Positions 7,457 to 61,010 of a stretch of DNA of 64,000 nucleotides are shown in pieces. Both the position numbers and the translations under genes were made by a program. This stretch comes from Natrarchaeobaculum sulfurireducens. GTDB taxonomy: Archaea > Halobacteriota > Halobacteria > Halobacteriales > Natrialbaceae. Each line of letters starts with the position of its first letter. Position 1 is the stretch's first letter. The stretch spans positions 3,162,001 to 3,226,000 of the forward strand of contig NZ_CP024047.1 in assembly GCF_003430825.1 (NCBI RefSeq), read 5' to 3'. The notes beneath the pieces are model-generated. The model ran no database searches and was not told the DNA's origin. It saw nothing but the letters and a program-made list of their open reading frames with translations.

Positions 7457-7542
7457 GTATAGTAGCAACGGCACCGGTTTGCACACTGATCGCCGATCCG
7501 TCTGGCGAGCAGGTGCGCACTGACGTGCAGTGGCTACTATAG
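7457..7542. repeat. 86-bp dispersed hairpin repeat, copy 1
   Basis: Terminal inverted arms TATAGTAGC / GCTACTATA bound the unit. Internally there are small stem-loops, CACTG-CACGT-CAGTG and TCGCC...GGCGA. A second copy of the same 86-base length and roughly 86% identity lies inverted at 44330-44415. The remainder of the 7345-7628 intergenic region holds the promoter of the preceding gene and no visible gene. Likely a MITE or REP-like element; I do not recognise a named family. Confidence 0.75.
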
Positions 7543-7628: not shown

Positions 7629-9299
7629 TTACATCATGCCGCCCATGCCGCCGCCCATACCGCCCATGCCGCCACCCATGCCGCCGCCGGCGGGCATGTC
7701 TTCGTCATCGTCGTCGTCGGCAACGGCGAGGTCGCCAGCGGCGATGACGTCGTCGATGCGCAGCAGCATGACGGCCGCCTCGGTGGCGGATTCGATGGCC
7801 TGAGTCTTCACGCGCAGTGGCTCGTAGACGCCTTCCTCGGCCATGTCGATGGTGTCGCCGGTGTAGGCGTCCAGTCCTGCGGCTTCGTTGCCGCCGTCGT
7901 GGTCGGCACGGAGCTCGACGAGCGAGTCGATGGGGTCCAGCCCGGCGTTCTCGGCCAGCGTGCGGGGGATGACCTCGAGGGCGTCGGCGAACGCCTCGAC
8001 GGCGAGCTGTTCGCGGCCGCCGACGGAGTCAGCGTAGTCGCGCAGGGCAAGCGAGAGTTCGACTTCGGGCGCGCCGCCGCCGGCGAGCACCTTGCCGTCC
8101 TCGATGGTCGTGCGGACGACGCCAAGCGAGTCCTCGATGGCGCGGTCGACCTCGTCGATGACGTGCTCGGTGCCACCGCGGAGGATGAGCGTGACGGCCT
8201 TGGCGTCCTCGACGTCCTCGACGAAGATGCGCTGGTCGCCCGCGATGTCCTTCTGGGCGACGCTGCCGGCGAAGCCGAGGTGGTCTTCGGTCAGGTCGTC
8301 GACCGAGGAGACGGGACGGGCACCCGTCGAGCGAGCCAGCTGCGTCTGGTCGCTGGATTTGACGCGGCGGACCGCGATGATGCCCTCCTGGGCGAGGTAG
8401 TGCTGGGCCATGTCGTCGATACCGCCGTCGACGAAGACGACGTCAGCGCCGACGTCGGCGATCGTCTCGGCCATCTCACGCAGCTGAGCCTCTTCCTGTT
8501 CAAGGAACTGCTCGAGCTGGGCTGGGTCGGTGACGTTGACTTCAGCGTCGATCTCGGTCTCTTTGATCTCGAGGGCGCCGTCGATGATGGCGACGTTTGC
8601 GTCCTCGGCGAAGTACGGCATGTTCTCGGAGACGCGCTCTTTGTCGACGATGACGCCTTCGACGAGTTCGGAGTTCTCGATGGAGCCACCGACGACCTTC
8701 TCGATGCTGACGTTGTCCGTGTCGATGCCGTCCTCGTCGGCGACTGCCTGAACGGCTTCGACGACGAGGTCCGAAAGCAGGTCACGGGCGCTCTCTGCAC
8801 CTTTGCCGGTCATCGCCGTAGCGGCGATCTTGTGGAGGATCTCGTCGTCGTCGGCTTCGACGTCGATGGCGATCTCCTCGAGCGCGTTGCGGGCTTCTTC
8901 GGCGGCCTGGCGATAGCCCTGTGCGAGCGTGGTTGCGTGGATGTCCTGCTCTAGAAGCTCTTCGGCCTGGCTGAGGAGTTCGCCGGCGATGACGACGGCG
9001 CTCGTGGTGCCGTCACCGACTTCGTCTTCCTGGGTCTCGGCGACTTCGACGATCATGTCAGCTGCCGGGTGGTCGATCTCCATCTCCGAGAGGAGCGTGA
9101 CACCGTCGTTCGTCACGATGACGTTGCCCGACGAGTCGACGAGCATCTTGTCCATCCCTTTCGGGCCGAGGGTGGTGCGTACCGATTCGGCGACGGCCTT
9201 GCCGGCCTGGACGTTCATCGACTGTGCGTCTTTTCCGGAGGTTCGCTGGCTGTCATCCGAGAGAACGATGAGAGGCTGGTTGCCCATCTGTTGTGCCAT
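7629..9299 (-). CDS. Thermosome subunit (group II chaperonin)
   Basis: Subunit of the archaeal group II chaperonin (Cpn60/TCP-1), the ATP-driven double-ring folding machine of the cytoplasm. At 556 residues it is full length. Visible signatures include the N-terminal [15 protein letters not shown], the nucleotide-binding GPKGMDKML and GDGTTSAVV segments, and the apical and intermediate domains. The C-terminus is an Asp-rich stretch followed by a GGM-repeat tail, typical of haloarchaeal thermosomes. Haloarchaea encode two or three paralogues (thsA/B/C or cct1-3); I cannot say which this is. The promoter has a clear TATA box and expression is expected to be heat-inducible by analogy. Confidence 0.97.
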
Positions 9300-44054: not shown

Positions 44055-44258
44055 CTATCCGCTCTCGGGATCGCGGTTCGCGAGCACGACGGTGAGAGCA
44101 CCGCCGCCGAGGAGCCAGCAAATGCCCAACCCGAGCAAGACGACGTTTGCGGTGACCGCACCGGTCGCGGCGACGGTCACTCCGAACAGGACGATCGCAC
44201 AAAGCATCAGTTGATAGAATCGTTCCTGCTCGGCGAACCAGCGGACGTACGCTTCCAT
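44055..44258 (-). CDS. Small two-helix membrane protein
   Basis: Protein of 67 residues, MEAYVRWFAEQERFYQLML then VLFGVTVAATGAVTANVVLL and LLGGGALTVVLANRD. It has two transmembrane segments and no other features. Function unknown. Confidence 0.65.
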   Translation of the reverse strand: MEAYVRWFAEQERFYQLMLCAIVLFGVTVAATGAVTANVVLLGLGICWLLGGGALTVVLANRDPESG

Positions 44259-44329
44259 GTCGAGTGATAGGTCACCACGGGGTAACGAGCGTATCGATAG
44301 AGCGGGGGCGGGTCGGTTCCGTGCCAGAT

Positions 44330-44415
44330 CTATCGTAGCCACTGCACGTCAGTGCGCGCCTGATCGCCAGACGGATCGGCGATCAGTGTCCACATCGGTG
44401 CAGGTGTTGGTATAG
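44330..44415. repeat. 86-bp dispersed hairpin repeat, copy 2
   Basis: Inverted relative to copy 1 at 7457-7542, the same 86-base length, with about a dozen differences concentrated at the ends. The core GCCACTGCACGTCAGTGCG and CGCCAGACGGATCGGCGAT are almost unchanged, which suggests selection on, or recent spread of, the core hairpins. It lies between the divergent small-membrane-protein genes. Confidence 0.75.
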
Positions 44416-44452: not shown

Positions 44453-44674
44453 ATGGGACTGAAACGACTGCTCGGCTCGAGGGCGACCCGTTCACTGACG
44501 GTTCTTTCGGTGTGCAAAGCGGCGAAGCGGGCGTTCGACCGTGGGAGTCGAGCGCGTGCCGTATTGTTGCTCGGCCTCGCCGTCCTCGCCTGGAAGTGGG
44601 CGATACTCGGCCTGGTGGCACAGGGCGTCCTCACGATGTTGCGCGCGAGGAAACCCGGTTCGGGCTCGACGTAG
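44453..44674 (+). CDS. Small single-helix membrane protein
   Basis: Protein of 73 residues with a basic N-terminus and one or two hydrophobic segments (AVLLLGLAVLAWKWAILGLV). Composition and start look like a genuine haloarchaeal small protein, but no homologue is recognised. Confidence 0.55.
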   Translation: MGLKRLLGSRATRSLTVLSVCKAAKRAFDRGSRARAVLLLGLAVLAWKWAILGLVAQGVLTMLRARKPGSGST

Positions 44675-60585: not shown

Positions 60586-61010
60586 GCAAAACTGGGCGAG
60601 AGGAGTAAGCCCCCTTCTGTTCGTCCCGGCATTCGGCTGAGCGTCCGCGCCGTCCGCGGAGACCGCGGGGCGTTCGGGCTACCACGGCACGGACTTGCAC
60701 CGGTGAGGGTTCGCCGTTCCATCGATCCTCGGCCGTCTGTCCGCAGTCGATCGTGCCATGCACGATCTATGGGTTCGAACCATGTGGTTCGACTGCGGGC
60801 CCATCAGCGGGTCAACTTCCCTTCCTTGCGGTCGGGTTCGCACGCATCATCGGTCGGGCCGAGACGTGTCGTTTCTGTTCCAGAGCCAGCGGTCTCCCGC
60901 TCCGGACTTGCGTCCGGTCACCTGCCCGAACAGGTGGGGGGACTTTCCTCGCGAGCGTGGCGCGTCTCAGAGACGGGCCACGTCAGGTGCGTTGGGCAAC
61001 CCGAAGAGTT
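60586..61010 (-). ncRNA. rnpB: RNase P RNA
   Basis: The universally conserved blocks are on the minus strand. GAGGAAAGTCCCCCCACC (5' half of P4, 60933-60950) is preceded by a P3-like hairpin (GTGGCCCGTCTC ... GAGACGCGCCAC). ACAGAAGGGGGCTTA (3' half of P4) covers 60606-60620. The intervening ~310 bases contain GGTGCAAGTCCGTGCCGTGG-like specificity and L15 sequence. Total length of ~425 suits archaeal type A. Ends are approximate because I could not pair P1 with certainty. It matures tRNA 5' ends. Confidence 0.9.

Follow-up and report, generated by a model that had tools for sequence, protein, structure and literature searches.

Features of the locus

The window analyzed here, a stretch of 64,000 nucleotides from Natrarchaeobaculum sulfurireducens (contig NZ_CP024047.1), contains two copies of an 86-bp repeat in opposite orientation (Table 1), which confirms the lengths, positions and orientations given in the initial annotation. 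Copy 1 is located between two genes whose translations suggest an ornithine cyclodeaminase-like and a thermosome-like product, while copy 2 is bordered by two ORFs, one of which would reach into the element if read from its GTG start. An annotated ornithine cyclodeaminase-like gene (L359:13625-14653) also adjoins a copy of the repeat in N. magadii pNMAG01, perhaps by coincidence.

Copy 2 matches copy 1 with an E value of 1.6e-23 in blastn, and chance is thereby excluded. When the two are read in the same orientation, 12 of the 86 positions differ, 9 of these 12 being within the first 26. The differences are thus clustered, as had been described, but in one arm and not at both ends.

Table 1. 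Features of the window discussed in the text
Feature	Position	Strand	Remarks
Repeat copy 1	7457..7542	+	86 bp, counting TA and one outer base at both ends; profile E 5.2e-27
Copy 1, putative transposable unit	7460..7539	+	80 bp, TAGTAGC...GGCTACTA; deduced from the empty sites of other copies and the table of ends
Copy 1, inverted ends	about 7460-7474 and 7525-7539	+	
Copy 1, left TA	7458..7459		putative target duplication, by analogy with empty sites elsewhere
Copy 1, right TA	7540..7541		putative target duplication, by the same analogy
Repeat copy 2	44330..44415	-	86 bp; profile E 3.9e-24
Copy 2, putative transposable unit	44333..44412	-	80 bp; left end eroded, TACCAAC for TAGTAAC
Ornithine cyclodeaminase-like gene (putative)	6346 to about 7344	-	borders copy 1; name read from the translation
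Thermosome-like gene (putative)	7629-9299	-	borders copy 1 on the other side; name read from the translation
ORF beside copy 2	44055-44342	-	GTG start would overlap the element; internal ATG near 44258
ORF beside copy 2, other side	44453-44674	+	
Archaeal RNase P RNA gene	60599-60985	-	Rfam search of the window

Copy number and distribution

The repeat is by no means limited to the two copies of the window; a restriction to these two, with conserved synteny in relatives, had been named in advance as an argument for a local regulatory role instead. In the same genome, blastn locates at least 40 places (the best 40 of 78 candidates were scored), and a profile built on 40 copies out of 10 genomes locates at least 67 distinct places at E<=1e-5 with the strands merged (150 of 2432 candidates scored). 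Since RNAalifold yields only 6 pairs for the 40-copy alignment, the corresponding model R1 is effectively a sequence model. All of the at least 67 places listed are on the chromosome, i.e., the 3.52 Mb contig of a three-contig genome of 3.79 Mb, and none is on the other two contigs (P 0.007 under uniform spread).

Blastn across 41 genomes detects the repeat in 18, including its own, all of which belong to one family (Natrialbaceae). The profile extends this to 132 of the 391 genomes of the class, distributed over 34 of 86 genera and the families f1, f4, f5, and f7. Of 72,556 plasmid records, 29 carry the repeat, and these are haloarchaeal by name. Phages gave no blastn match, and one exact pattern of the repeat gave 0 matches in viral contigs.

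For 90 of 114 copies, the closest copy belongs to the same genome, compared to a mean of 33 and a maximum of 49 in label shuffles; identities are inflated, however, for most of the copies from other genomes, which were gathered by an exact pattern. This result supports separate bursts of amplification in each lineage.

Fold, ends, and coding content

Copy 1 forms a full-length imperfect hairpin, with a calculated fold energy of -25.1 kcal/mol as DNA (z -5.6) and -43.3 kcal/mol as RNA (z -5.5). Among 200 shuffled versions none is equally stable, for DNA and RNA alike. The consensus terminates in CTATAG on both sides, the outer left C being present in only 61% of the copies, and the majority ends of the aligned copies read TAGTAAC at one end and TAGTAGC at the other, constituting terminal inverted repeats. 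The central part is variable, consisting either of a short stem or of stems with extra paired sequence (units of ~120 to 266 bp), while the hairpin is retained between subfamilies.

In variants of 126, 126, 192, and 266 bp, stop-free stretches extend to 41, 38, 57, and 83 codons at most, respectively, which is too short for a transposase. Two further units, of 204 and 316 bp, have uncertain lengths because each includes an N. The suggestion that the repeat has no coding function is plausible, as 55 of the 57 scored copies, three of them at the edge of a stretch, lie outside the ORFs predicted by a crude home-made gene caller, which recovered 17 of 23 annotated stops in a control on one stretch. 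The 57 copies are found between tandem (24), divergent (16), and convergent (12) genes, at an edge (3), or within an ORF (2).

The very stable fold, the location of most copies outside predicted ORFs, and the hairpin kept between subfamilies are all in line with a structured small RNA or a cis-regulatory hairpin under selection at many loci. The covariation score points in the same direction, being 0.069 as compared to 0.062 in shuffles (reached by 15 of 500) and to values from 0.015 to 0.052 in the slid controls, with a structure taken from one row of the alignment, in which 86% of the cells are paired. With the same one-sequence structure, the number of double-change cells is 10. Shuffles give 5.0 +- 1.8, a value of 10 being attained by 1 of 500, yet the slid controls give 6 to 13. 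Moreover, mutations present in only one or two of 56 copies from the same genome are spread evenly over the element (mean 1.31 per column, variance/mean 1.04), which is the pattern that drifting insertions should produce. For private mutations of this kind, the special conservation ascribed earlier to the core does not hold. Rfam gives no match within the element, neither at the gathering score in the window nor at E<=1 for three loci, where the single, chance-level match (E 0.77) is outside of it. With the covariation being weak and equivocal and all gene configurations occupied, we regard selection for an RNA or regulatory function as highly unlikely, and the argument that the repeat loci encode a small RNA is weakened. 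The pair counts fit a hairpin that is renewed by transposing masters and decays in each copy.

Insertion sites

The flanks of 57 copies were joined without the element and sought in close relatives, and the junctions could be aligned for 14 sites with usable relatives, comprising 30 relative loci. At 12 of the 14 sites and 21 of the 30 loci, exactly two nucleotides replace TATAG...CTATA. The dinucleotide in the relative is TA at five of the twelve two-base sites (L099, L115, L096, L168, and L188). The other seven show CA (L125 and L097) or TG (L130 and L180), four sites together, and AA/GA (L147), GT (L126), or CC (L021) at one site each, the L126 and L021 junctions being poor alignments. L097 was set against eight loci, perhaps including paralogues, five of which read CA. 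A different length is seen in one of two relatives for L115 and for L180 and in one of three for L168. The two exceptions to the two-base rule are L165, with 14 bases, and L061, with four.

TA accounts for 2.7% of dinucleotides near the junctions and occurs at no more than three of the 12 sites at any other offset. Its presence at five of 12 corresponds to P 9e-6 against this local frequency and 1.4e-6 against the window's 1.8%, and nine TA, CA, or TG in 12 sites to P 2e-7 (window frequency); these statistics compare dinucleotide frequencies and offsets, the junction script itself having been run on real sequences only. CA and TG are one transition away from TA; either the relative may have drifted or the target may be less strict. 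The two-base junctions with TA thus favor a unit that reads TAGTAAC...GGCTACTA and is flanked by TA. Target duplication of TA, which is found here, is a mark of IS630/Tc1-mariner elements. L189 holds two elements, one of them positioned at the other's terminal TA, and L124 contains a single element.

The first scan for duplications, on 180 copies and with CTATAG counted as part of the element, gave nothing convincing (best z 3.2 over many combinations). We attribute this misleading outcome to the fact that TA belongs to the ends and to the target alike. Comparison of the fetched loci among themselves for empty sites provided few usable pairs, and the joined flanks of copy 1 have no match in four relatives.

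Two copy flanks (positions 690-779 and 1201-1280 of the joined-flank query) have dozens of matches in other genomes, and a short palindromic motif, CTGTCSGACAG, is found near copies at three places in 367,842 bases of the genome under study (L044:2517 and 2662, L054:4919). The motif and the multi-match flanks probably belong to at least one additional family of dispersed repeats.

The junctions also bear on the possibility that the repeat is a REP- or REPIN-like element, copied by a Y1 transposase (RAYT or IS200-like) acting on single-stranded hairpins. The full-length imperfect hairpin would suit such a mechanism, as would the GTAG close to one end, a hallmark of REP sequences, and the spacing of some copies, only 0.6 to 1.5 kb apart. 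Against this, the two-base junctions with TA and the kinship of the ends with IS630 elements (see below) point elsewhere, and none of the three Y1_Tnp genes of the genome is flanked by the repeat, the nearest being about 31 kb from a listed copy. A REP-like origin, which had been offered as one option, therefore appears very improbable.

IS630 elements and the candidate helper

Of 125 genomes of the family, 75 encode transposases with the PF13358 domain, and a set of 107 IS630 loci (L238-L344) was collected. Unsupervised detection of inverted repeats that begin with TA gives TATAGTA-type ends in 23 of the 27 best-hit loci (L268-L294). One of these, L268, corresponds to NMAG_RS21280 of N. magadii, annotated as ISNamo16 family, from which we name the group. 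The consensus ends of the ISNamo16-like group are TAGTAACCGTTAGAA and TAGTAGACGTTAGAA, derived from 35 of the 107 loci; these were picked for TATAGTA at both ends, and the first five matching bases are therefore partly due to selection. The group member L332 carries TAGTAACCACTAGAA.

The repeat agrees with the ISNamo16-like ends in 14 of 16 terminal bases (8 per end) and in 20 of 30 over 15 bases per end, while six other IS630 end types do not exceed 9 of 16 and 13 of 30. The swapped pairing of the ends still gives 12 of 16, so that the left/right asymmetry is a modest point. At L268 (N. magadii pNMAG02) and L288, ISNamo16-like elements are inserted inside repeat copies, both at the same CTAG and with TA doubled. 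Such nesting reveals the target rule of the group and its occurrence in the same genomes as the repeat; it does not show that the group moves the repeat.

Among the 107 loci, no autonomous IS630 element with the subterminal ACTGCAA of the repeat was found. A search for the repeat's own ends in these loci gave 18 matches, which were considered as an autonomous version and rejected, as they are repeats nested in or beside an IS, or the IS630 ends themselves. In three genomes holding the repeat (G007, G008, and G011), the PF13358 search gave no match.

The IS630 elements of the genome under study have ends of another type in the four copies examined (of five). These copies, with ends TAGTGATG, are 99.7 to 100% identical (G000 C1:49475, C2:55897, C2:64453, and C3:3334278), and as they are near-identical and found on all three contigs, this element has probably been active recently.

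Proposed origin of the repeat

The best reading of these results is that the repeat constitutes a MITE family of IS630 type, amplified separately in each lineage. It is short and lacks a transposase gene, has terminal inverted repeats, is dispersed in high copy number, shows the TA duplication of the helper type, and possesses transposon-related ends. Of the options put forward in the initial annotation, it is the MITE that gains support, through the many copies, the inverted ends, the TA at the junctions, and the IS630-like ends. That the repeat is a mobile, non-autonomous element targeting TA is very probable.

According to this proposal, a non-coding mini-transposon of ~80 bp with the ends TAGTAAC.../TAGTAGC... 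would insert at TA and duplicate it. As the repeat has no gene, it would have to move in trans by means of an IS630/Tc1-mariner transposase, most likely an ISNamo16-like or closely related one; we consider it somewhat probable that the helper comes from the ISNamo16-like group. Judging from the sequences, an IS630 transposase would cut the repeat ends in spite of the differing subterminal bases. The inserted copies would have no selected role and would drift, new bursts presumably arising from a few masters per lineage. Plain drift does not explain, however, why a full-length hairpin, which exceeds what a MITE needs, is kept between subfamilies, with a covariation score above those of all slid controls.

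A high-copy repeat present in about a third of the sampled haloarchaeal genomes is thus given likely boundaries, a target rule, and a candidate helper. The copies of Natrialba chahannaoensis that have empty sites in close relatives provide material for the study of archaeal IS630 trans-mobilization. Among the papers listed by searches of the openly available literature, none describes the repeat family by title or in the beginning of its abstract; subscription journals or ISfinder may. The terms "MITE" and "IS630" are absent from the available parts of the N. magadii genome paper, which reports transposases and IS elements (PMC3403918), and of the Natrinema J7-2 paper (PMC3402447).

Comparison with known systems

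The family appears to be new but of an ordinary, known kind, the IS630-type MITE. Stowaway and other eukaryotic Tc1/mariner MITEs likewise combine a TA duplication, a hairpin, and a helper acting in trans, and differ from the present repeat in host domain and sequence. ISNamo16-like IS630 elements, such as NMAG_RS21280 of Natrialba magadii, share the outermost bases and double TA at CTAG in the two nested cases, but they are about 1055 bp long with a transposase, and their subterminal sequence is GTTAGAA instead of ACTGCAA.

Among haloarchaea, Haloquadratum walsbyi is described as having MITEs, PATEs, and SMRs (PMC3119063). PATEs, derived from IS605, have neither terminal inverted repeats nor a target duplication; the repeat has both, and this class was rejected. 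The SMRs are described in the same paper as small mobile repeats, 80 to 110 bp long, that have inverted ends, lack a duplication, and are mobilized in an unknown way (PMC3119063). The present repeat agrees with them in size, inverted ends, and dozens of copies, and its first flank scan likewise revealed no duplication. By definition, though, an SMR has ends unrelated to transposons and leaves no target duplication, while the empty sites of our repeat give two-base junctions with TA and its ends resemble those of IS630, and we accordingly give an SMR assignment hardly any weight. A bolder and rather doubtful extension would be that some of the enigmatic small mobile repeats of haloarchaea are themselves IS630-type MITEs, whose TA duplication is hidden since the ends read TATA; one helper group, recognizing little beyond the outer 6 to 8 bases, would then spread full-length hairpins across many genera and be repeatedly lost from genomes that keep the repeat.

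Among the close counterparts are also the Haloquadratum MITEs, which are likewise short, gene-less, and bounded by inverted ends. IS630 is not named in the main text of the paper on them, which reports that they have only a few terminal bases in common with their helper transposon (PMC3119063). The present repeat differs from these MITEs in being almost one full hairpin.
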